This document shows, piece after piece, positions 16,473 to 27,791 of a DNA stretch of 64,000 nucleotides. Below the pieces are notes generated by a model. It saw only the letters and a list, made by a program, of their open reading frames with translations, was not told where the DNA came from and did no database searches. Both the position numbers and the translations under genes were made by a program. This DNA is from Thalassolituus maritimus. GTDB taxonomy: Bacteria > Pseudomonadota > Gammaproteobacteria > Pseudomonadales > Oceanobacteraceae. The stretch's first letter is position 1. Every line of letters begins with the position of its first letter. Location: positions 1-64,000 of the forward strand of contig NZ_FTOH01000006.1 of the NCBI RefSeq assembly GCF_900156675.1, read 5' to 3'.

Positions 16473-19400
16473 TTATTTCAGCACGACCAACACCTGCCCC
16501 GGTGCCACGCCTTTACCCGCTTCTTTCAGAAGCTCGACCACGGTGCCGTCTTTATGGGCGGTGACTTCGATTTCCATCTTCATGGATTCCAGCACCAGTA
16601 GAGGCTGACCGGCTTTTACGCCCTGTCCGGGTTCGACCAGTACCTGCCAGACGTTGCCAGAGACGTGGCTTTCTACGGCAAACTCACCATCAAGCAGTTC
16701 GCGTTCGTCGTTTTCTTCGGCAACACCTATATCCGATTCAAAGCGCAGTAAGCCTTTGGCCTTCCAGTCTTCCAGTTCGGTCTGGAAGGCTTGCTGACGA
16801 TGCGTCTGGAATTCGCTGATGCCAGCGGCGTTATCACTCAGGAAACGCTCGTACTCATCGAGGTTAAAGGTGTCTTCTTCAATCCGAATCGGGTACTGCC
16901 CGTGCGGGAAGTGCTCACGGATGTCCGTCAGTTCATCGTGGCTGACTTCGTAGAAGCGGATTTTATCGAAGAAGCGTAGCAACCAGGGCTTGGTAAATTC
17001 TTTGGTTTGTTTGTAACGGTTCCACATCTGCAGAGTGCGACCGACAAACTGATAACCACCGGGGCCTTCCATACCGTATACACACATATAAGCACCACCG
17101 ATACCGACGGAGTTTTCTGCCGTCCAGGTGCGTGCTGGGTTGTACTTGGTTGTCACTAAGCGGTGACGAGGGTCAACGGGCGTGGCTACTGGTGCGCCGA
17201 GGTACACGTCACCTAAGCCCATCACCAGATAGCTGGCATCGAAGACGATTTTTTTCACGTCGTCGACGGATTCAAGACCGTTAATACGACGGATAAACTC
17301 GATATTATCCGGGCACCAGGGCGCATCGGCGCGCACAGACTTAACGTATTTATCAACCGCCTGCTGGCAGGCAATATCATTCCAGGAAAGTGGTAGCCAG
17401 ACGGTACGTGAGGGCACTTCGGCATTTTTAAGATCACCCAGCGCGTCTTCTTCGTTGATCAGAAGCTTGAGCAGATCACTCTGCTTTAATGTCAGGCTGT
17501 CATAGTGAATCTGTAATGAACGAATGCCCGGTGTCATTTCGATAATTCCCGGTATTTCCCGACTTTGCAGAGATTCCATTAACGCATGTACACGGAAGCG
17601 CAAACGGATATCCAACTGCAGTGGGCCGTATTCAATCAGCAGATAATTATCACCGGCGGGGCGATAGACAACGCCGGTTGGATGACTTTCTGTATCAATG
17701 GTTTTTAGCACCGGTGAGTCAGGTAAATACTCACTTACTTCTGAATGTTGGTATTTAAGGGAGTCTAATTGCTTGAGCTGTTCATTACGAAGATTTACCG
17801 CTGTGTCGTGGCTTACCGGTGTAAAACGGATTTTATCCCCAGCTTTTAATTGTCCGAGTTTCCACAGGTCTGCCTGAATAACAGTCACAGGGCAGACGAA
17901 ACCACCGAGGCTTGGGCCGTCAGGGCCGAGAATGACTGGCATGTCACCGGTAAAGTCCACGGCACCAATGGCGTAGGCATTATCGTGAATATTGGATGGG
18001 TGCAGACCCGCTTCACCGCCATCGTTTCGAGCCCATTCAGGTTTAGGGCCGATTAAGCGCACACCTGTGCGACTGGAATTAAAGTGAACCTCCCAATCGG
18101 CGGCAAAGAATTCATCAATATCATTCTGAGTGAAAAAATCGGGTGCGCCATGTGGGCCGTAGATAACACGCAATTGCCATTCATTGCCGATGGCAGGTAA
18201 GACATCTGCAGGCAATATATCGTCAGCTAATTTGACGTAGCTTGCAGACGTTGCTTCTTCAGTCAGATGTAATACATCACCAGGAAGCAGGGCGCGTCCG
18301 TTATGGCCGCCAAACTGCCCGAGCGTAAAGGTGGAGCGTGATCCTAGATACACAGGGCATTGAATGCCGCCAGCAACGAGCAGGTACGCACGGGCACCCG
18401 CGCCGGTCACCGTACCGCAATCCAGTTGGTCGCCTTGTTTCACTTCAACGATCTTATTAAATGGGATGCTGTAAGTCGTATTATCGCGACTCAGTTCAGC
18501 ACTCGTTGCAGCGCCCGTAAGGATAATTTGTGTGGCTTTCTGAAAAACCAGTACCGGGCCTTTTAAGGTAATTTCAAGGCCTGCGCAGTCTTCGCTGTTG
18601 CCCAGCAGGCGGTTACCTAAGCGGAAGGAATATTCATCGAACGGGCCTGATGGTGGAATACCTACGTCCCAGTGGCCGATACGACCGGGAACGTCCTGCA
18701 CTGTGGTTTGAGTGCCACCACTGATCACATCAATGGCTGGGTCGGAGAACTGCATTTTGCTCAGTTTCTGCGTCCAGACCAATCCGGCTTTTACTTCTTC
18801 GTCTTTTAGAATCGACTTCAGATAAAGCAGGTTGGTTTCGATGCCGTACAGTTCAGATTGATCGAGGGTTTCTGCTAACCCGGTCATTGCCTGCTCGCGG
18901 GTTTCTGCTGTGACAATGACTTTTGCCAGCATAGGGTCGAATAATGCGGGCACCTGTGTGCCGCTTTCGATCCATGTATCGATTCTGGTACGCATTCCAT
19001 GTGTAGTTGTGGCTTGCCAATCTACCCGGCTAAGAAGTCCGGCGCAGGGCTGGAAGTTTTTTACCGGATCTTCGGCATAGATTCGTGCCTGAATACTGTG
19101 GCCTTTCGCAGAACGTTGTTCGTTTAAGGGTAACGTTTCACCGGCGCCAAGCCGGACCATCCACTCCACTAAATCCACACCAAAGACTTCTTCGGTCACA
19201 CCGTGCTCAACCTGTAAGCGGGTATTCACTTCGAGAAAGTAAAATGATTCGCTGATTTCGTCGTAAATAAATTCCACCGTGCCTGCACTGCGGTAATTTA
19301 CGCTTTCGCCTAAACGTTTCGCTGTCTCATGCAGGGCAGTACGGACGGTCTCTGAAATACGGGGTGCCGGTGTTTCTTCAATGACTTTCTGGTTGCGTCG

Positions 19401-20093
19401 TTGCAATGAGCAGTCCCGTTCACCGAGCGCAGCAACCGTACCTTTGCCGTCACCAAAAATCTGAACTTCAATATGGCGGGCGCGCTCAACAAATTTTTCC
19501 AGGAATACGCCATCGTTCGAGAAGTTATTGGCACTGAGGCGTTTTACCGAATCAAAGGCGTTCACCAGTTCTGCTTCGGTGTAACAGAGCTGCATACCGA
19601 TACCACCACCACCGGCGGTGCTTTTCAGCATCAGTGGGTAGCCAACACGATCAGCCTCTGCTTTGGCTTCGTTGATGTCAGTCAGAAGACCTGTGCCCGG
19701 CAGCATGGGTACATCGGCTTGTTCGGCCAATGCGCGGGCGCTGTGTTTCAAACCGAAGTCGAGCATCTGTTGGCCGGTTGGCCCGAGGAAGACTACACCT
19801 GCTTGTTCACAGGCATCGGAGAAGGTCGCGTTCTCGCTTAAGAAACCGTAGCCAGGGTGAATGGCCTGGGCACCACTTTCTTTCGCAATGCCCAGAATTT
19901 TTTCCTGATTCAGATAGGTATCGGCGACACTGCCATCACCTAGTGAGTAGGATTCTTCCGCTTGCTGAACGTGCAGCGAATGCTTGTCTGCTTCGTGATA
20001 AATTACAACAGGGGTGACGCCAAGGTCATTCAGCGTGCGCATAATACGCACAGCAATGGCACCACGGTTGGCAATCAGTACTTTAGAAAACAT
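16473..20093 (-). CDS. uca: Biotin-dependent urea carboxylase family; probable guanidine carboxylase
   Basis: A 1206-residue enzyme that carboxylates urea or, more likely here, guanidine, using ATP, bicarbonate and a swinging biotin. Order of domains: biotin carboxylase (residues 1 to about 450; KSTAGGGGIGMQL grasp loop, EVNTRLQVEHGVTEE), a central AHS2/KipA-type and AHS1/KipI-type carboxyltransferase pair (about 470-1050), and a biotinyl domain with LESMKMEIEV (biotinyl Lys near residue 1171). There is no fused allophanate hydrolase, and none lies elsewhere in this window. The guanidine-I riboswitch upstream of this operon and the two DUF1989 genes argue for guanidine as substrate, as biochemically shown for related bacterial urea carboxylases. 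It follows UAAP2 after two bases. Confidence 0.9.
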   Translation of the reverse strand: MFSKVLIANRGAIAVRIMRTLNDLGVTPVVIYHEADKHSLHVQQAEESYSLGDGSVADTYLNQEKILGIAKESGAQAIHPGYGFLSENATFSDACEQAGVVFLGPTGQQMLDFGLKHSARALAEQADVPMLPGTGLLTDINEAKAEADRVGYPLMLKSTAGGGGIGMQLCYTEAELVNAFDSVKRLSANNFSNDGVFLEKFVERARHIEVQIFGDGKGTVAALGERDCSLQRRNQKVIEETPAPRISETVRTALHETAKRLGESVNYRSAGTVEFIYDEISESFYFLEVNTRLQVEHGVTEEVFGVDLVEWMVRLGAGETLPLNEQRSAKGHSIQARIYAEDPVKNFQPCAGLLSRVDWQATTTHGMRTRIDTWIESGTQVPALFDPMLAKVIVTAETREQAMTGLAETLDQSELYGIETNLLYLKSILKDEEVKAGLVWTQKLSKMQFSDPAIDVISGGTQTTVQDVPGRIGHWDVGIPPSGPFDEYSFRLGNRLLGNSEDCAGLEITLKGPVLVFQKATQIILTGAATSAELSRDNTTYSIPFNKIVEVKQGDQLDCGTVTGAGARAYLLVAGGIQCPVYLGSRSTFTLGQFGGHNGRALLPGDVLHLTEEATSASYVKLADDILPADVLPAIGNEWQLRVIYGPHGAPDFFTQNDIDEFFAADWEVHFNSSRTGVRLIGPKPEWARNDGGEAGLHPSNIHDNAYAIGAVDFTGDMPVILGPDGPSLGGFVCPVTVIQADLWKLGQLKAGDKIRFTPVSHDTAVNLRNEQLKQLDSLKYQHSEVSEYLPDSPVLKTIDTESHPTGVVYRPAGDNYLLIEYGPLQLDIRLRFRVHALMESLQSREIPGIIEMTPGIRSLQIHYDSLTLKQSDLLKLLINEEDALGDLKNAEVPSRTVWLPLSWNDIACQQAVDKYVKSVRADAPWCPDNIEFIRRINGLESVDDVKKIVFDASYLVMGLGDVYLGAPVATPVDPRHRLVTTKYNPARTWTAENSVGIGGAYMCVYGMEGPGGYQFVGRTLQMWNRYKQTKEFTKPWLLRFFDKIRFYEVSHDELTDIREHFPHGQYPIRIEEDTFNLDEYERFLSDNAAGISEFQTHRQQAFQTELEDWKAKGLLRFESDIGVAEENDERELLDGEFAVESHVSGNVWQVLVEPGQGVKAGQPLLVLESMKMEIEVTAHKDGTVVELLKEAGKGVAPGQVLVVLK

Positions 20094-20095
20094 AG

Positions 20096-20734
20096 TTACT
20101 CCCAGATCAGCACATCGACTGGTGTCGGGTTATAGCCGTTGCACGGGTTATTCAGCTGCGGGCAGTTCGAGATCAAAACCAGAATATTCATTTCGGCTTT
20201 CATCTCGACGTATTTTCCCGCACCCGAAATACCGTCTTCAAAGGTCAGGCCGCCTTCCGGAGTAACAGGCACGTTCATAAAGAAATTGATGTTGTGGGTG
20301 ATGTCAGACTTGCTCAGGCCATATTCTTCATTTTCGTTAATGGCCAGCATCCAGCTGTCACGGCAGGCATGCATGCACTTTTTCTCAAGCGAGTAACGCA
20401 CGGTGTTCGATTCAGTCGCACAGGCGCCACCCAGTGTGTCGTGACGACCACAGGTGTCTGCAGTAATCGTTAGCATGGGTCGGTCTTCGTTGGAGCGCAG
20501 AACAGTGCCCGCAGTGAGATAAACGTTACCTTGGCCTCTAATGGTATCCATAGCGCTGTAGCGTTCTGAAACGTCATCGGCGTTATAGAACAGGGTGTCT
20601 GCGGCCTGATTACCTTCGAGATCGAGAATGCGGAAGGTCTGGCCTTTTTCAATGCGATGCAGGAAATAGTCTCCCGCGGGAACGGTTTCACGGAATACCG
20701 CATCGGCTTCGTTAAATTGGCTTTCTTTAATCAT
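20096..20734 (-). CDS. Urea carboxylase-associated protein 2 (DUF1989), probable carboxyguanidine deiminase subunit
   Basis: A 212-residue DUF1989 protein. Such proteins occur as an unequal pair beside urea/guanidine carboxylases; the pair is known as carboxyguanidine deiminase (CgdAB), which removes ammonia from carboxyguanidine to give allophanate. Visible are [34 protein letters not shown] (conserved Cys and His, probably metal-binding or catalytic) and a C-terminal [19 protein letters not shown]. Its length matches the shorter family member (UAAP2). It lies 12 bases after the longer paralog and two bases before the carboxylase. Assignment of A versus B subunit is not made here. Confidence 0.88.
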
Positions 20735-20746
20735 GATGCGTCCTCC

Positions 20747-21478
20747 TTATTGGCCCATAAACTGGTAAATCGCGTTGTTTTTAAAACCGCGCTGGTTTTC
20801 AGGGCGGGAGTTCATACACTCATCATCGTCAGTCACCGGCTTGGCCTGAGCCAGTGCGTAATGTACCGGGCGTACAGGATATTCTTCAGCATTACTCAGT
20901 GGATGAGGGCAGGTGTGCATGATGACCAAGGTGTCCATCTCGAAGCGCAGCACGATTTTATCGCCTGCTTTCGAGCCTTCGCTGTACTGCAGATTGCCTT
21001 CGTTGTCGGTACTGATTTTGCTGAATAAATTCAGGTTGGCGGCCATGTCTTTGCGGGTCAGGCCGTACTTGGCCAATTCGACCAGAAAGGCGTCGTAGCC
21101 ATTCTGTGTCCAACCGTTTAAGGCCTCCTGATAGGTTTTCAGCGACCATTTCTTTTGCAGCATGTCTTTGTTCAGGTTGCCGCACACGGTATCGTGCCAG
21201 CCGCAGTCGTCTTCAACGATGGACGCAAAAATACGCCCCATGTCTGAATACAGACAATGACCACGGGTCAGCTTAAAGGTGTGCTGACCTTTCAATGTGT
21301 CAGGCGCGTTGTATTTTTCCAGAAGGTTTTCCGGGTTGTAAAACAGCATGCCCAGATTTGCGTCGCCTTTAACATCGGTGAGCGTCAGCAGCGTGCCTTT
21401 TTTAACTCTCATGGACCAATGACAGCCACCACCGAGAGTATCTTCATAAATAGTATCGCCAGACTGAAAATCAGACAT
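20747..21478 (-). CDS. Urea carboxylase-associated protein 1 (DUF1989), probable carboxyguanidine deiminase subunit
   Basis: A 243-residue paralog of the next gene and the first gene after the guanidine riboswitch. Shared features are DVKGDANLGMLFYN, VEDDCGWHDTVCGNLNKD (matching CGRHDTLGG of the partner) and MHTCPHPLSNAEEYPVRPV near the end. The longer C-terminus matches UAAP1. Together with UAAP2 it would form the heteromeric deiminase acting after carboxylation. AGGAGG precedes the ATG at 21478 by about 5 bases, a strong ribosome-binding site that could be masked or exposed by riboswitch folding. Confidence 0.88.
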   Translation of the reverse strand: MSDFQSGDTIYEDTLGGGCHWSMRVKKGTLLTLTDVKGDANLGMLFYNPENLLEKYNAPDTLKGQHTFKLTRGHCLYSDMGRIFASIVEDDCGWHDTVCGNLNKDMLQKKWSLKTYQEALNGWTQNGYDAFLVELAKYGLTRKDMAANLNLFSKISTDNEGNLQYSEGSKAGDKIVLRFEMDTLVIMHTCPHPLSNAEEYPVRPVHYALAQAKPVTDDDECMNSRPENQRGFKNNAIYQFMGQ

Positions 21479-21615
21479 AAAGGCCTCCTGTATGCGCAGA
21501 CATCTTGGGCGCGGAAATCATTAATAAAAAGAAATGGGGTTTTGTCACGGTGCGGGCTCCTGCAAGTTCACGGATTCATAAACGCTGCTTATTACAATGT
21601 GGGCAGTGCGTTGTC

Positions 21616-21742
21616 TGATCTCCCGGGCTTTTATCCCGCCGTGTAACCTGCCAGTACGCCGCTGGAGGTCGGTCACTCTCGGTCCAGTCGCTGGTTCTAT
21701 CCCCTAACTTGATTGGGAGAGACCTGCCGGAACCCTAGTGCC
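21616..21742 (-). ncRNA. Guanidine-I (ykkC) riboswitch
   Basis: On the minus strand the region reads CTAGGGTTCCGG (21727-21738), then GGACCGAGAG, then ACACGGCGGGATAAAAGCCC and GGGAGA (to about 21616). These are the signature conserved blocks, in correct order, of the ykkC subtype that binds free guanidinium. It sits 138 bases upstream of the UAAP1 start, the classical place. In this class ligand binding turns expression on. No strong T-run terminator is obvious between aptamer and gene, so control may act at translation; the expression platform is not resolved. Confidence 0.93.
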
Positions 21743-21750
21743 CTTATTGT

Positions 21751-21779
21751 GGCAACGGCACATGTTTACGTGCGCTGCC
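21751..21779. other. Stem-loop between promoter and riboswitch
   Basis: GGCA and GCAC pair with GTGC and TGCC around an ATGTTTAC loop. It lies in the leader just 5' of the riboswitch on the minus strand. Role unknown. Confidence 0.35.
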
Positions 21780-21804
21780 TCTAAAAGCGTAAGTACATTC
21801 TGCT

Positions 21805-21822
21805 AAGCGATTGCTGTGCCAA
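21805..21822 (-). promoter_or_regulatory. Sigma54-like promoter for the carboxylase operon
   Basis: On the minus strand TTGGCACAGCAATCGCTT matches the -24/-12 pattern TGGCAC-N5-TTGCW with one mismatch in the -12 box. It is placed about 65 bases upstream of the riboswitch aptamer. Pattern match only. Confidence 0.45.
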
Positions 21823-21842
21823 ATGCGTATATATAGTGATAA

Positions 21843-21857
21843 CCCGCTGAGAGCGGG
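21843..21857. other. Short hairpin in the divergent spacer
   Basis: CCCGCTGAGAGCGGG is a clean six-base-pair stem with a small loop, located between the two promoters. It has no T run; function unknown. Confidence 0.35.
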
Positions 21858-21896
21858 ATTGCAAGTGCGGTTGCCTCGGCGAGTTATCTGGAACTT

Positions 21897-21956
21897 GCAC
21901 TCTTGGTGTGCCCGTTGCGGAACCTCGTGCTTTCTCTCGGTGCACACTCTGGTACG
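21897..21956. promoter_or_regulatory. NtrC-like enhancer dyads between divergent promoters
   Basis: GCAC-N7-GTGC at 21897-21911 matches the NtrC binding dyad. A weaker partner, GCAC-N7-TACG, lies at 21942-21956, 45 bases away. They sit between sigma54-like promoters on both strands, at distances suited to enhancer binding. Inferred from pattern; no direct evidence. Confidence 0.4.
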
Positions 21957-22112
21957 AGTTGATCACTCTTCTACCGCCTGCTTGTTCAGATTTCAGGCGT
22001 AGTATGCAAAGCGGACAAAAAATACCAGGGCCCGAATTCCGTGCGTTTCAGCAAGTTCAGAGAAAGGTTGGTTACTCCTCTCAGGTGGTAAATGACAAAA
22101 AATGTCTAACCG

Positions 22113-22128
22113 TGGCACAGCCAATGCA
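22113..22128 (+). promoter_or_regulatory. Sigma54-like promoter for the transporter operon
   Basis: TGGCAC AGCCA ATGCA matches TGGCAC-N5-TTGCA with one mismatch. A start site about 12 bases beyond would leave a leader of about 45 bases before the ATG at 22186. Confidence 0.5.
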
Positions 22129-22185
22129 AGGTTCGATATTACGAAACGCAATTTCAGTAATACTAACAACCTTTGGGGAATACCT

Positions 22186-23169
22186 ATGGCGATCAGAAAG
22201 AAGTTTATTGCAGGTGCGGTGTCTGTTGTGTGCGCAGGGTTGATGAGCGTTGCCAGTGCAGTGGCTGAGCCTCTCAAGATTGGTTACAGCGACTGGCCGG
22301 GCTGGGTAGCCTGGGAAATCGCGCTTGAGAAAGGCATGTTCGAAGAAGAGGGCGTAGACGTTCAGTTCGAGTGGTTCGATTACGTGGCCAGTATGGATGC
22401 CTTTGCTGCCGGGCAGCTCGATGCGGTATCAATGACCAACGGTGATGCCCTGGTGACTGGTTCAACCGGCGCGAAAAACGTGGCCATTCTGATCAACGAC
22501 TACAGCAATGGTAACGATATGGTCGTTGCTGCTGCGGGTATCAGCACGGTTGAGGAGCTGAAAGGCAAGAAAATTGGTGTTGAAGTCGGTTTTGTCGGAC
22601 ACCTGCTGCTGCTCAATGCTTTGGAAAAAGCCGGTATGACCGAAGCTGACGTTGAGCTGGTAAATGTGCCTACTAACGAGACTCCGCAGGTACTGGCTTC
22701 TGGTCAGGTGGATGCCATTGTTGCCTGGCAGCCTAGCTCTGGTCAGGCGCTGAATCTGGTGCCTGGCTCAAAGCGTATTTATTCAAGTGCGGATGAACCG
22801 GGTCTGATCTACGACGTTCTTGCAGTATCGCCACAGAGCCTTGCTGCTAACCGTGCAGACTGGCTAAAGGTTCTGAAAGTCTGGTACATGGCGGTTGATT
22901 ACCTGAAAGATCCAGAAACCCGTGATGAGGCCATCAGCATTATGGCTGCTCGTGTGGGTATCCCACCTTCTGAGTACAAGGGCTTTATCGATGGCACCAA
23001 GATCCTGACGTTAGAAGAAGCGCTTCCTTTTATGAAGAAATCAGCAGGCTTCAAATCTTTATACGGCTCCGGTGAAATCGCAGATGCCTTTAATCTGGCG
23101 AACGATGTCTATGGCGAAAAACAGCCAGTCGATGAATACATCGATCCTTCACTGATGGAAGCTCTGTAA
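22186..23169 (+). CDS. ABC transporter periplasmic binding protein (urea carboxylase-linked, NrtA/TauA/SsuA type)
   Basis: A 327-residue protein with a Sec signal ([27 protein letters not shown], cleavage near 27). The mature part follows the NMT1/TauA-like binding fold: [65 protein letters not shown]. Its place opposite the guanidine carboxylase operon and the family context (urea carboxylase-related ABC transporters) point to guanidine, urea or a substituted guanidine as ligand. ATG 22186 was chosen because it opens the signal peptide and has GGGG upstream; an ATG at 22102 would put 28 residues before it. A terminator-like hairpin follows the gene, a common way to keep binding protein in excess. 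Confidence 0.88.
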
Positions 23170-23187
23170 CCCTCGGGGCTCAGCATA

Positions 23188-23217
23188 ACCGGCGCTATTG
23201 GATTAGCGCCGGTTTTT
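23188..23217 (+). terminator. Terminator or attenuator between binding-protein and permease genes
   Basis: ACCGGCGCTA pairs with TAGCGCCGGT around a 6-base loop, followed by a short T run. Located 18 bases after the binding-protein stop; probably reduces read-through to the permease. Confidence 0.75.
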
Positions 23218-23300
23218 CTCTACCGATATTCAACATGTCCTGCAGGGCTGGGGGTACTTTGGCTCTTTCCTGCTAATCGGACATAACCATGGGGATTGAA

Positions 23301-24251
23301 ATGCAGCTTATTGCCGTTAACAGAAAACTCGACAGAGGCCCACGAAGAGCCGTCACTCTGGCCAGCTTCGCATTACCGATACTGATCTGGGCTTTAGTGA
23401 GCTATGTTCCGTTTTTATGGCACCCTCAGGTTGAAATCACACAATCGGGTTCTGTCAGTTACTTCAGCGAAGGCTTGCTGGTTGACCGGGAAGTGTTCGA
23501 CCGTGAGTACGATAAAGCGAGCGAAAATGGCACGGCACTCCCAGAAGGCAAGCCTGCAAACCCTGTGTATCTTCCTGCACCTCATGAAGTTGCCGCAGCG
23601 TTTGTCACTTCATTTACTACTGAGCCTAAACGTCGAAGTGAGAACTGGCTGCATGAAAGCTTGTGGAGCAGTATTCAGGTTATTTTCTGGGGTTTCGTGC
23701 TTTCTTCCATCATTGGTATACCTCTGGGAATCCTGGCGGGCACTTATGACTTCTTCTCTCGTTTATTTGAACCTTTTATTGAATTTTTCCGGTATCTGCC
23801 TGCGCCAGCGTTTGGTGCTCTGGCCGTAGCCGTATTGGGTATTTATCAGGCACCTAAGATCGCCATTATCTTTATCGGCACTTTTTTTCAGCAAGTCTTA
23901 GTCGTTGCCAATACCACGCGTAAGCTTGATCCGAGTCTGTTAGAGGCTGCTCAGACACTGGGTGCCAAGAACAAGTCCATGCTGTTCCGTGTTGTGGTAC
24001 CGGGCATTCTGCCTGATCTGTATCGCGATGTTCGCATCCTTCTGGGCTGGGCCTGGACTTACCTGATCGTTGCGGAGCTCATCGGTACCAGTTCAGGTAT
24101 TACCTGGTTTATTACGCAGCAGGCGCGTTACAAAAATTTCGACAACGTGTTTGCTGCCATCATCATGATCGGGATTCTCGGTCTTACCATTGATCTGTTA
24201 TTGGCATGGTTAGGGCGCCGCCTCTTTCCATGGCAGAAAGAAACCAAATAA
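23301..24251 (+). CDS. ABC transporter permease (SsuC/TauC-like)
   Basis: A 316-residue inner-membrane permease. TM1 (residues about 20-38) is followed by a periplasmic insertion of about 90 residues (QVEITQSGSVSYFSEGL...), longer than in SsuC/TauC. Five further helices follow, with the coupling motif EAAQTLGAKNKSMLFRVVVPGILPDLYRDVRILLGWAW (EAA loop). It forms the channel for the neighbouring ATPase. GGGGATTGAA precedes the ATG at 23301, favouring it over 23289. It is 14 bases upstream of the ATPase gene. Confidence 0.88.
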   Translation: MQLIAVNRKLDRGPRRAVTLASFALPILIWALVSYVPFLWHPQVEITQSGSVSYFSEGLLVDREVFDREYDKASENGTALPEGKPANPVYLPAPHEVAAAFVTSFTTEPKRRSENWLHESLWSSIQVIFWGFVLSSIIGIPLGILAGTYDFFSRLFEPFIEFFRYLPAPAFGALAVAVLGIYQAPKIAIIFIGTFFQQVLVVANTTRKLDPSLLEAAQTLGAKNKSMLFRVVVPGILPDLYRDVRILLGWAWTYLIVAELIGTSSGITWFITQQARYKNFDNVFAAIIMIGILGLTIDLLLAWLGRRLFPWQKETK

Positions 24252-24264
24252 GCGGAGATAACCC

Positions 24265-25164
24265 ATGACAGAGAAAGAATTACCCAGTTATCTCGATCAG
24301 GCACCGGAAGTAAAAGACCGCTTCGATCGGCTTAAGCAGCGCCCAGTAACCATGGAGGTTAAAGGCCTGAATAAGCAGTTCGGTGAAGTAATTGCCTTAA
24401 AAGACATTAACCTGAAGATCCACAAGCGCGAGTTCGTTTGTGTGATTGGCCCTTCGGGCTGCGGTAAATCGACCCTGATACGGATTCTGGCGGGGCTTGA
24501 ACAGGCGAGTTCCGGACAGGTGCTTCTTAACGGAGAAGCCGTGACAGAACCCGGCCCGGAACGCGGCATGGTATTTCAGGGATATACCCTGTTCCCCTGG
24601 TTGACGGTAAAAAAGAACATTATGTTCGGGCTTATTGAAAGCGGCTACGACAAAGGAACCGCAGAGTCAGAAGCTCGTGAGTGGATCAACCTTATCGGTT
24701 TAACCAAATTTGAAAACAGTTATCCGCATCAATTGTCCGGTGGGATGAAGCAGCGTGTTGCGATTGCGCGTGCTTTAGCGAACCGGCCGAAAGTACTGTT
24801 GATGGACGAGCCGTTTGGTGCACTGGATGCTCAGACGCGTGCGAAAATGCAGGCGTACCTGCTAGAAATCTGGAAGAACATCGACATTACCGTGTTCTTT
24901 ATTACTCACGATCTCGATGAGGCTGTGTATCTGGCCGACCGAATTCTTGTGTTAAAGGCGAATCCCGGTGAAGTGCAGGAAATTGTTGAGGTACCAGTGC
25001 CTCAACCACGTTCCCCTGATCAGTTTATGAATCCGGAATTCCTCGCCACTAAGCAGCATATTGAAGAGTTGATTCATCCGCCATCAGAGCAGGAAGAAGA
25101 CGATGATCATCTCAATCTTGTGCGCATGGTGCATGTCAACGACGACGTCGGGAGCGTCTTCTGA
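24265..25164 (+). CDS. ABC transporter ATP-binding protein (SsuB/TauB-like)
   Basis: A 299-residue ATPase with Walker [10 protein letters not shown] (residues about 62-70), Q-loop [11 protein letters not shown], signature [15 protein letters not shown], Walker [13 protein letters not shown] and H-loop ITHDLDEA. It powers import through the preceding permease. The C-terminal 50 residues are acidic ([11 protein letters not shown]) and longer than in TauB. Its TGA overlaps the ATG of the creatininase gene, indicating translational coupling and so a shared physiological role. Confidence 0.92.
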
Positions 25165-25934
25165 TGTACCAACTCAGCCATATGACCTGGGAAGAAGTCG
25201 CCTCCGCTGTGGAGGGTGGAACAAACACTGCCATTCTGCCCATCGGAGCGACCGAGCAGCATGGCCCACATATGGGCTGTGGTATGGATACCGCGATTGC
25301 GCATCGGCTTTGCAGTGACGTTGCTAAAGAATCGGATGTCATTCTGTTACCGACTTTGCCATACGGGTGCTCGGTTGGACATTCCCGGCGCTGGCCAGGC
25401 ACTCTGGCGTTAAATCCGAAGACCTTAATTGATGTTATTTCAGATCTGGGCGACTGGGTAAAAAGCTCGGGTGTCAGACGCCTGGTGCTGGTCAACGGTC
25501 ATGTGACTAACGAAGCCCCGCTGCGCTGTGCGCTGGAAATTCTGCGCGCACGTCATGACGGTTTTATGGTGGCTTTGGTGAATACTGCACAGATTTCTGC
25601 ACGGGTTAAAGACGCGCATTTTGCCGATGCCGAAGATTGGCACGCCAACGATGCAGAGACGTCATTGATGATGCACCTATACCCTGAAATCGTACGCGAG
25701 AATAAATTAGCGGAAGCCGATGATGAAGACAGAACCGGGAGCTGTCTGTTCAGTCACCCGGTTAACCGAACCAGTAAAAATGGCGTTACCGGCACGCCAT
25801 CAATCGCCAGCACAGAAAAGGGCGCTGAATTGTACCAATGGATGTGTGAAGATTTTTCTTCACTACTGCAACAGGCCGTTAAGGAAGAGGCCCCCCTTAA
25901 TCACAGATACTACGAGTCTGTACTTAAGATTTAA
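25164..25934 (+). CDS. Creatininase-family amidohydrolase
   Basis: A 256-residue metal-dependent hydrolase. Conserved metal and active-site motifs are present: [22 protein letters not shown] (Glu, His and Asp ligands), [26 protein letters not shown] and [13 protein letters not shown]. The family opens cyclic or linear amides (creatinine, formamidopyrimidine intermediates, mycofactocin peptide). In this operon, coupled to an importer facing a guanidine carboxylase, a substrate such as creatinine or another guanidino/amide compound is plausible but not proven. The start overlaps the ATPase stop (TGATG). Confidence 0.85.
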
Positions 25935-25953
25935 TCCTGCAAAGGACAAACCA

Positions 25954-27324
25954 ATGATCGACGTAAAATCTGACAGTGAAATTAACCGCATTCAGGAAGA
26001 ACTGCAGAAGAAAGGCGTGAAATACTGCATGGGAACCTATGTAGATATTCACGGTATTCCGAAAGGAAAAGTCGTTCCTATTTCCCATCTTCATCATATG
26101 GCCCACGGTTCTGAACTCTATACAGGCTATGCTCTGGATGGGTTAGGGCAGGCACCCAATGACGATGAAATTGCCTCTGTGCCTGATCTTGATCACATTA
26201 TTCAATTACCATGGCAGCCAGAGGTTGCCTGGATGCCAGCGGATAATACCCTCTATGGCGAGCCCTACATGCTCAACACCCGTGTTTTGCTGAAATCGGT
26301 GCTTGAGCAGGCAAAGGACATGGGTTTTGGTATGAACCTTGGTATTGAGGCTGAAGTTTTTCTGCTCAAGAAAAATGAAGACGGTAGCCTGGTTCCGCAA
26401 GACCCCAACGATAAACTGAAGAAGCCCTGTTATGACACCCAGTCATTCCTGAGTAATTTCAGCTGGCTCGACCGGATGGCAACTTCGATTAATGACCTCG
26501 GATGGGGGCTTTACTCTTTTGACCACGAAGACGCCAACGGTCAGTTTGAGTTCGATTTTAATTACGCAGATGCTGTTACATCGTGCGATCGTTTTACCTT
26601 CCTGAAAATGATGGCGAAAGAATATGCGAAGCAGGAAGGTCTGCTGGCGACCTTTATGCCGAAGCCATTTTCGAACAAAACCGGCAACGGCGCGCACTTT
26701 AATATGTCGCTTTACGACCTCGATACGAAAGAGAATCTGTTTCAGTGCAAACCCTCTGACGATCCTCATGGTCTTGGCTTAACCGAACTCGGTTATCAGT
26801 TTATTGCTGGTGTTCTGAAGCATGGCCCAGCATTGTGTGCTGTGTTTGCACCGACGGTGAATTCCTATAAGCGCCTCGTGCGTCAGGGAGATATGCCGTA
26901 CTTCACCTGGGCGCCGGTATTTAATTCTTACGGTTCAAATAACCGTACTAACTCGGTACGTGTGCCTATGGGCGGCGGCCGCTGTGAATCTCGTAATGCC
27001 GATGGAGCGACAAACCCATATCTTGCGTGCGCTCTGGTATTGGCTGCAGGCCTTGAAGGCATTCGCGAGAAGCTCGATCCTGGCAAGCCACAGGAAACTA
27101 ACCTCTACGAGCTGACCGAAGAAGAGCGTGAAGCGCGCGGTATCGGATTTTTACCACGCACATTAGATGAAGCGATCACAGCGTTTGAGAGTGATCCGTT
27201 CGTTGAAGAAGTGCTGGGTAAAGAATTACGTGCGGAGTTTATCCGCTACAAACGCGAAGAATGGAATGAGTATCATCGTTCAGTGAGCGAATGGGAAATC
27301 GAACGCTACAGTCATTTATTCTGA
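25954..27324 (+). CDS. Type III glutamine synthetase-like ligase (GlnT type)
   Basis: A 456-residue ATP-dependent ligase. Seen: an N-terminal beta-grasp domain ([21 protein letters not shown]), [32 protein letters not shown] (metal ligands), [14 protein letters not shown], and [29 protein letters not shown]. The last replaces the Arg/Glu pattern of GlnA and is typical of the GlnT/gamma-glutamylmethylamide group. It would join glutamate to ammonia or to an amine released by the preceding hydrolase. ATG 25954 has AAAGGA upstream; longer readings extend into the creatininase gene. It is 19 bases after that gene. Confidence 0.87.
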
Positions 27325-27344
27325 GATTAACGGAGTAACTAGCA

Positions 27345-27791
27345 TTGAATAAAAAGGAACCTCTCAGTCGCATCAGTATCTCTTTGCCCGAGTCTCTTCT
27401 CAGTGGGCTGGATGAAATGGTTGCACGACGCGGTTTTGACAGCCGCTCGCAGGCCATCTGCGACATGATTAATCGCGACATTAACGAGCATCGCTCGCAG
27501 TCCGGTGATGAGGTCATGACAGGGACGTTAAATCTGGTTTATAACCATTCGATACCGGGGTTACATAAAAAGCTTTATGACCTGCAGTACAAGTACATTG
27601 ACGAGGTGATCAGCAATCTGAGTGTGAACCTAACTGATACCCACACACTGGCGGTGCTACTGGTACAGGGCCCGGCTGACCGACTTCGTATGATAGGCGA
27701 TCAGATGATCAGCCTGCGTGGTGTCGCGCATGGTAAATTGTTACTGAATTCTTATCTGATCCCGCCAATTCATCCATTACCTGAGTCTTAG
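27345..27791 (+). CDS. NikR-like ribbon-helix-helix regulator lacking nickel ligands
   Basis: A 148-residue protein: an N-terminal RHH DNA-binding domain (SRISISLPESLLSGLDEMVARRGFDSRSQAICDMINRDI) and a C-terminal ACT-like NikR domain (GTLNLVYNHSIPGLHKKL; HTLAVLLVQGPADRLRMIGDQMISLRGVAHGKLLL). Aligned by eye with E. coli NikR, the four nickel ligands His76, His87, His89 and Cys95 correspond to Tyr, Ser, Asn and Thr, so the high-affinity nickel site is absent. It may therefore sense another ligand, perhaps one linked to this pathway. It starts with TTG (27345) behind CGGAGT, 20 bases after the ligase gene, and is the last gene of the operon. Confidence 0.85.
   Translation: MNKKEPLSRISISLPESLLSGLDEMVARRGFDSRSQAICDMINRDINEHRSQSGDEVMTGTLNLVYNHSIPGLHKKLYDLQYKYIDEVISNLSVNLTDTHTLAVLLVQGPADRLRMIGDQMISLRGVAHGKLLLNSYLIPPIHPLPES

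Follow-up and report, generated by a model that had tools for sequence, protein, structure and literature searches.

Two divergent operons in Thalassolituus maritimus

The first 64,000 nucleotides of contig NZ_FTOH01000006.1 of Thalassolituus maritimus (assembly GCF_900156675.1), hereafter the window, carry between positions 16473 and 27791 a locus of two divergent operons. A carboxylase operon headed by a guanidine-I riboswitch lies on the minus strand, and the plus strand encodes an ATP-binding cassette (ABC) importer, a creatininase-family hydrolase, a glutamine synthetase (GS)-like ligase and a regulator resembling NikR. The comparative analysis reported here makes it reasonably probable that these operons form one guanidine-nitrogen locus, and that a repressor of the NikR family, with guanidine or a close metabolite as inducer, acts on the plus operon. 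All genes are found at the positions named in an earlier note made from the sequence alone, and the gene anatomy that it drew for both strands is borne out by profile matches and coordinates; the palindrome and the two promoter-like boxes described below were absent from it.

The genes of the minus operon are those of the published guanidine carboxylase pathway, and a guanidine-I riboswitch precedes them. Specifically, a carboxylase of the urea-carboxylase family (16473-20093; TIGR02712, 1833 bits; Pfam CT_A_B, CT_C_D and Biotin_lipoyl), which unites biotin carboxylase, carboxyltransferase and biotinyl domains, is preceded by two DUF1989 genes, UAAP2 (20096-20734; TIGR03424, 337 bits, cut-off 285) and UAAP1 (20747-21478; TIGR03425, 310 bits, cut-off 206), which we take to encode the subunits of carboxyguanidine deiminase. 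The riboswitch aptamer proposed on this strand is confirmed at 21618-21749 (RF00442, 77.3 bits, gathering score 63), as the sole Rfam match at threshold in the window and the sole guanidine-I match in the genome; further 5′ is a sigma-54-like -24/-12 box (TGGCACAGCAATCGCT, minus strand, 21806-21821) agreeing with the consensus at 10 of 12 positions. The description of the carboxylase as standing alone holds at the locus itself and fails genome-wide, as an allophanate hydrolase is encoded on another contig (G000:C13:53939-55606, 775 bits). The pathway gene set (carboxylase, UAAP1, UAAP2, allophanate hydrolase) is therefore complete in the genome, with the riboswitch present on the operon, and the UAAP partners and riboswitch point to guanidine as the probable substrate of the carboxylase.

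Excerpts of two papers report guanidine carboxylase operons with guanidine riboswitches in Pseudomonas syringae, Raoultella and Klebsiella (PMC12186494, PMC11410670), and these have in common with the present locus the riboswitch, the carboxylase, the carboxyguanidine deiminase, the allophanate hydrolase and an ABC importer. By term search, the main texts of the two papers contain no creatininase, glutamine synthetase, NikR or repressor, whereas the first three of these families are present at the Thalassolituus locus. In addition, the importer binding protein found here reaches only 143 bits against TIGR03427, the urea-carboxylase-associated family, whose cut-off is 334 bits.

On the plus strand, a second sigma-54-like box (TGGCACAGCCAATGCA, 22113-22128, score 10/12) is followed by a 28-bp palindrome, ATATTAC-N14-GTAATAC (22136-22163), the proposed operator of the NikR-like regulator. 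Downstream lie the genes for an NMT1/SsuA-like substrate-binding protein (22186-23169; SsuA_fam 161 bits, cut-off 163.5), a permease (23289-24251; PF00528, 90 bits), an ATPase (24265-25164; PF00005, 124 bits), a creatininase-family amidohydrolase (25164-25934; PF02633, 237 bits), a ligase resembling type III GS and gamma-glutamylamide synthetases (25954-27324; TIGR03105, 651 bits, cut-off 470) and the NikR-like ribbon-helix-helix (RHH) regulator (27345-27791; PF08753, 72.5 bits, and PF01402), with a TTG start and a nickel site that appears lost. The overlap already noticed between the hydrolase and ATPase genes is found at 25164, where the creatininase-family open reading frame (ORF) begins on the final base of the ATPase stop codon. 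No second guanidine riboswitch was found ahead of the plus operon at E values up to 1 in 21450-22250.

Conserved linkage to guanidine metabolism

Loci of the same kind were collected by means of the creatininase-family protein. The top 80, out of at least 559, make up a set of 85 together with four larger loci of relatives and the window. Duplicates (L011, L012 and L015, of L019, L020 and L021) and L017, near-identical to L018, were dropped before counting; L019 (G008), a near-twin of the window whose creatininase-family protein is 96% identical, was kept, and the G253 region, with the same aptamer scores as L063, was not counted as independent of it.

UAAP1 or carboxylase genes lie within about 10 kb in 61 of the 85 loci. 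As for the remaining 24, the search covered 19 genomes (L025, L042, L060, L081 and L094 being outside it) and found UAAP2 elsewhere in 17; it was not found in the genomes of Methylobacillus arboreus (L052) and of a verrucomicrobial metagenome-assembled genome (MAG; L097). Among 55 relatives, UAAP2 is present in all nine genomes with the creatininase-family gene, versus 23 of 55 above cut-off overall. The same is seen in a class-wide sample of 274 genomes chosen independently of the loci, where all eight creatininase-positive genomes carry UAAP2 against a base rate of 23/274; by simple arithmetic that ignores kinship, the chance probability is about 7e-10. In many loci guanidine-II aptamers lie directly 5′ of the carboxylase gene, and a cluster of amidase/allophanate-hydrolase-like ORFs is represented in 44/85 (the one member checked has Amidase and AH_C domains). 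A search of plasmids returned creatininase-family matches only, all below 60% identity. The co-occurrence that the earlier note had set as its test, to be given up if the linkage were not conserved across genomes, is thus observed both in the collected loci and in the class sample, and orthologous operons are also headed by guanidine-I riboswitches. Because such riboswitches head it in several lineages, the plus-type operon can be assigned to guanidine metabolism, and to judge from these aptamers it is guanidine-regulated in relatives.

Two other roles were considered. A methylamine pathway, suggested by the frequency of methylotrophs among the loci, is weakened by the same operon in sulfur oxidizers and Oceanospirillaceae. 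Replacement of allophanate hydrolase by the creatininase-family enzyme is unnecessary, given the hydrolase-like ORFs counted above and the enzyme encoded elsewhere in the window genome. A separate observation concerns L065, listed as a Klebsiella pneumoniae MAG, whose creatininase-family protein groups with loci of gammaproteobacterial MAGs of other kinds; the bin is perhaps mislabelled or mixed.

The NikR-like regulator and its palindrome

The regulator is the most interesting part of the locus. It combines the RHH (PF01402) and NikR_C (PF08753) domains and matches PDB entry 2bj1 at E=4e-31. According to an excerpt of PMC7055735, Escherichia coli NikR binds nickel through His87, His89, Cys95 and His76 of a neighboring subunit. 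Alignment to Pyrococcus horikoshii NikR places Y82, S93, N95 and T101 at the ligand positions of the window protein. The Cys is missing from all 57 NikR-like proteins of the set, and the His ligands are variably lost (His at position 82 in 13, at 93 in 39, at 95 in 38). The altered NikR had been rightly flagged in the earlier note, though left uninterpreted. NikR, known from E. coli, Helicobacter pylori and P. horikoshii, is nickel-responsive and acts by co-repression, while the protein described here has guanidine genes as neighbors and is proposed to act by induction.

Genome-wide distribution separates the two types of protein. In the class sample, seven matches to the NikR-like profile at 151 bits or more, together with a contig-edge fragment of 102 bits beside UAAP genes (G182), all come from genomes with UAAP2 (8/8), versus none of the 24 genomes with lower scores (below 130 bits, presumably canonical NikR), the division having been drawn after the gap was seen. 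One genome, G218, carries both types. No second NikR-like protein was found in the window genome at E 1e-6, so that canonical NikR is apparently lacking there.

A scan of the upstream regions for dyads, without preset motif, returned one dominant palindrome, GTATTAC-N14-GTAATAC. With gene starts estimated from alignment, up to two mismatches allowed and a reach of 350 nt upstream of the binding protein, it is found in 49 of the 51 regions whose locus includes a NikR-like gene, in 4 of 21 regions without one and in none of 14 aptamer-led regions. The two gene-positive regions lacking it are L061, whose best site has four mismatches, and L066, which is aptamer-led. Throughout 1.61 Mb of loci, some of them closely related, 48 sites with at most one mismatch are found, where simple arithmetic would give about 0.3; 45 of these precede the binding-protein gene, while the creatininase-family gene has one (L039) and UAAP1 two (L036, L045). 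It is thus at the starts of importer, creatininase-family and UAAP1 genes that the sites stand in the 85 loci, not at the nickel genes that NikR controls. Beyond the loci the scan covered the 3.86-Mb window genome, in which the only match to RTATTAC-N14-GTAATAY is the one at 22136-22163, a reversed control pattern giving none.

The palindrome also predicts the presence of the gene in a genome. Six loci have it without the gene nearby (L028, L029, L030 and L032, before the binding protein; L039 and L046, before the creatininase-family gene), and as predicted all six genomes encode the regulator elsewhere, at 41-47% identity and adjoining UAAP1. In L073 and L080 the regulator and importer genes diverge around the palindrome. 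Outside the discovery set, six regulator-positive assemblies show the importer in view; in five of them the palindrome precedes the binding-protein gene (G261, G279, G325, G296, G346), and the sixth, G218, has a one-mismatch site before UAAP1. Two more palindromes, with zero and two mismatches, were noted at L124:338-365 and 510-537, ahead of a second binding-protein gene, only distantly related (29% identity), which diverges from the carboxylase gene.

The operator of Escherichia coli NikR is given in the excerpt of PMC7055735 as GTATGA-N16-TCATAC. Set against it, the palindrome can be written GTATTA-N16-TAATAC: on this published site, both span 28 bp with GTAT...ATAC ends and N16 spacing, the geometry being equal and one base differing per half-site (the left half-site of the window is ATATTA). 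Taken together, distribution and geometry give good support to the reading that the NikR-like protein binds the palindrome, which we regard as very likely.

Sigma-54-type promoters

Upstream regions were further scored against the -24/-12 consensus of sigma-54 promoters. Boxes scoring at least 10/12 are present in 45 of 51 gene-positive regions, versus 1% of shuffles. Box and palindrome occur together in 46 of 72 regions; in these the palindrome follows the -12 GC at a distance of 4-15 nt, so that it would lie over the presumed transcription start. Boxes scoring at least 9 are found upstream of the aptamer in 9 of 14 aptamer-led regions; L065 has no such box upstream of its aptamer, and in four Methylorubrum/Methylobacterium loci the 350-nt stretch ended before the region 5′ of the aptamer. 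These promoters suggest that nitrogen control would stand above a guanidine-responsive layer, be it riboswitch or repressor.

Exchange between riboswitch and regulator

Guanidine-I aptamers were sought with the Rfam model and a second model, derived from ten such aptamers. Within 450 bases 5′ of the binding-protein ORF they are found in 13 of the 70 loci tabulated, as well as in L060; the other 15 of the 85 loci were left out for insufficient flank, binding-protein gene or ligase. Of these 70 loci, 12 have the aptamer only, 49 the NikR-like gene only, one both (L066) and eight neither. Thirteen aptamer-led genomes have no NikR-like gene in the locus: in nine there is no match in the whole genome, and the four Methylorubrum/Methylobacterium genomes have only matches of 23-27% identity. 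When the state, palindrome or riboswitch, is mapped on a creatininase-family tree and the six regulator genes located in trans are counted as present, it changes at least five times, and the supported independent pairs that differ all go in the predicted direction. Outside the discovery set, the regulator-negative assemblies G160 and G374, whose importers are more distant (binding proteins 28-36%), lack the palindrome, and an aptamer precedes the binding-protein gene instead.

L066 may preserve a trace of such a change. Its intact binding-protein gene is riboswitch-led, and at L066:1480-1690 a palindrome with two mismatches and a sigma-54-like box stand 5′ of an apparent fragment of a binding-protein gene, a possible relic that is consistent with a recent exchange of controls.

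A proposed protein counterpart of the riboswitch

The following mechanism is proposed. The plus operon would supply two accessory enzymes, an importer whose substrate is probably guanidine, and the NikR-family regulator, which would bind the palindrome at 22136-22163 over the presumed start and so repress both the operon and its own gene. Guanidine or a close metabolite would lift the repression, and the pair of regulator and palindrome would serve the plus operon as the riboswitch serves the minus operon. Release by guanidine or a close metabolite is slightly favored by the evidence. The guanidine-I riboswitch is an ON-riboswitch, and it is from the exchange of the regulator with it that both the ligand and the direction of control are deduced. 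The more extended proposal joins several claims: that the NikR-like protein senses guanidine or a guanidine-derived metabolite, with the metal site dismantled and the operator geometry kept; that it has been exchanged with the riboswitch several times; that in the window the two sensors lie opposite one another on either side of a single divergent promoter region; and that ligase and hydrolase carry out an undescribed guanidine-specific reaction. Taken as a whole it falls a little short of an even chance and is advanced tentatively.

A number of observations weigh against this proposal, starting from the fact that ligand and direction have the exchange as their basis. The mutual exclusion of aptamer and gene has a Fisher p of 1.3e-7, a value that ignores relatedness, and the independent-pair test yields two pairs on supported branches and five on all, too few for significance. 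L066 holds both gene and aptamer; L040, L071 and L097 have no gene in the whole genome and neither aptamer nor palindrome directly before the binding protein, the aptamer of L071 lying about 1 kb upstream. When 80 genomes were scanned as a whole, guanidine-I aptamers turned up in 46, and for many genomes only 72 candidates were scored. L061 and G218 encode the regulator, yet have only a four-mismatch site before the binding protein. In the window alone, three matches with at most three mismatches compare with a mean of 1.2 in shuffles, which is not above chance, and the evidence for the palindrome therefore rests on its conservation; it could also belong to another regulator of equal distribution. 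Finally, the window regulator passes the NCBIfam NikR equivalog cut-off NF003381 (112 bits, cut-off 105), having failed TIGR02793 (78 bits, cut-off 175), and the His kept at positions 93 and 95 in 39 and 38 of the 57 proteins could allow some regulators to bind metal.

This last point leads to the alternative that survives best, namely that the NikR-like protein binds the palindrome and senses another signal, either a metal bound to the remaining His or a nitrogen metabolite such as glutamine, allophanate or a gamma-glutamyl compound, guanidine induction passing through riboswitches only. The sigma-54-looking promoters make nitrogen control expected, many orthologues retain one or more His of the nickel site, and the window riboswitch controls the carboxylase operon only. 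However, the orthologue is missing in 13 of 14 genomes with a riboswitch-led importer operon, as expected if both devices report one signal, and the metal variant has to accommodate the loss of the Cys ligand in every protein and the Tyr, Ser, Asn and Thr at the ligand positions of the window protein. A different signal thus appears rather unlikely, while being a serious alternative to sensing of guanidine.

The importer and the accessory enzymes

Two assemblies, one genome each, bear on the roles of importer and enzymes. In G296 the importer, NikR-like and carboxylase genes stand in a row, hydrolase and ligase both being absent; G346 has importer, ligase and NikR-like gene but lacks the hydrolase. 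In neither was a creatininase-family gene found elsewhere in the genome at 1e-40. These gene sets offer the strongest indication that the importer carries guanidine, which we consider likely, and that hydrolase and ligase are probably accessory.

The two accessory genes adjoin on one strand in 85/85 loci, which were collected by the creatininase-family gene. Creatininase opens an acylguanidine, creatinine being a cyclic one. The protein encoded here shares the fold family and most metal and catalytic positions with creatininase (PDB 1q3k, 1j2t), with E31, H33, D42, H113, H160 and E165 kept in 85/85 members. It differs at the position that we take to be the counterpart of creatininase Glu122, which is Thr in 77 of 85, Ser in seven and Gly in one, and its 135 bits fall below the 235 needed for the creatininase equivalog TIGR04448.

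As for the ligase, its best PDB match is 9qur, a glutamate--methylamine ligase, and its closest solved relatives are this entry and 7cql, presumably a methylamide synthetase (gamma-glutamylmethylamide synthetase/glutamate--methylamine ligase). Although its score lies well above the cut-off of TIGR03105, type III glutamate--ammonia ligase, that name does not fix the substrate, because 7cql bears the same name. The ligases here share with these relatives a Trp at W318 (81/81), a position presumably aligned with the catalytic Glu327 of GS. They keep D61 (81/81), whereas 9qur has Trp there and 7cql a gap beside Trp, in alignments read by eye. With W318 in common with methylamine ligases and D61 retained, either guanidine, ammonia or an amine may serve as the third substrate.

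If it were ammonia, the ligase would capture guanidine-derived ammonia as glutamine, and the creatininase-family enzyme would be a side activity. Ammonium assimilation would suit a nitrogen operon and the family is named after type III GS, but the Trp at the aligned Glu327 position, common with methylamine ligases, and the constant neighborhood of the creatininase-family gene (in loci gathered by that gene) make this unlikely.

If it were an amine, importer, hydrolase and ligase would handle a substituted guanidine or amide, the hydrolase freeing an amine that the ligase joins to glutamate, as the earlier note had supposed. The acylguanidine chemistry of creatininase and the methylamine-ligase name of the closest solved relative would fit, a 2-oxoglutarate (2OG)-Fe(II) oxygenase, or a TIM-barrel protein together with a desaturase, is additionally encoded in some loci, and an excerpt of PMC12508155 describes demethylation of methylguanidine by a dioxygenase and a lyase encoded in a guanidine operon. 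Against this stand the retained D61 of the ligase and the two assemblies, G296 without hydrolase and ligase and G346 without hydrolase (one genome each, the ligase having been looked for at the locus only), and we regard it as distinctly unlikely. The claim that the second operon extends the pathway is partly supported: it holds for a guanidine-linked module, while processing of substituted guanidines with amine transfer would be a less simple reading than import of guanidine itself, given those assemblies. Lastly, reversible trapping of a toxic, leaky cation, in which the ligase would make gamma-glutamylguanidine, an acylguanidine, and the creatininase-family enzyme would hydrolyse it back, draws on the adjoining, guanidine-linked genes, on the hydrolysis of creatinine by creatininase and on the acidic residue kept at the presumed ammonium site beside a Trp at the other catalytic position, but is highly improbable in view of the ATP cost and of G346, which has the ligase without the hydrolase.

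Several loci show variations in gene content. In four Hyphomicrobium-type loci (L076, L078, L091, L098) the creatininase-family gene (57-60%) accompanies a ligase gene that is more distant (48-52%), and the order of the two is reversed; no NikR-like gene was found in these genomes at E 1e-6, and in L078 and L091 the same strand additionally encodes a distant ABC importer. A protein of the fatty-acid-desaturase family is encoded in guanidine loci (L029:5108-6121, L041:12147-14067, L030, L032, L043), often with a xylose-isomerase-like TIM barrel, and some of these loci add a metallo-beta-lactamase-fold protein and an EamA transporter. A guanidine-II aptamer lies directly 5′ of the desaturase ORF in L030, L032 and L043 and overlaps the assumed ORF start in L036 and L041. 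This desaturase/TIM-barrel set could be an alkylguanidine-degrading cassette. In addition, a gene for a 2OG-Fe(II) oxygenase stands beside a gene of another family in L022, L024, L071, L072, L092 and L098, an arrangement that resembles, by description, the methylguanidine dioxygenase/lyase pair; the partner checked (L054:3738-4601) has no Pfam match.

Novelty and implications

Of the components of this locus, the carboxylase pathway is already known. The two accessory enzymes, and more particularly the regulator with its operator, appear undescribed in the literature searched. No paper joining creatininase with type III GS or glnT, or with guanidine riboswitches, was found in this search, most subscription papers being outside its coverage. 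For NikR together with guanidine riboswitches it pointed only to work that appears to concern another RHH protein. The suggestion of an undescribed module is upheld to this extent, as a guanidine-linked module of this composition was not found described there.

An excerpt of a 2025 review states that future research may reveal guanidine-binding regulatory proteins. The present locus offers a concrete candidate for a guanidine-responsive protein, together with its operator. It further links a creatininase-family enzyme and a GS-like ligase to the assimilation of guanidine nitrogen in Proteobacteria, making the substrates of both enzymes testable, and it warns that the labels "NikR", "creatininase" and "type III glutamine synthetase" may mislead at such loci. 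If the proposed mechanism is true, a metal sensor would have been turned to a new signal with its DNA geometry retained, and a protein regulator that replaces a riboswitch on the same operon in several lineages would represent a matched pair for studying the choice between RNA and protein sensing.

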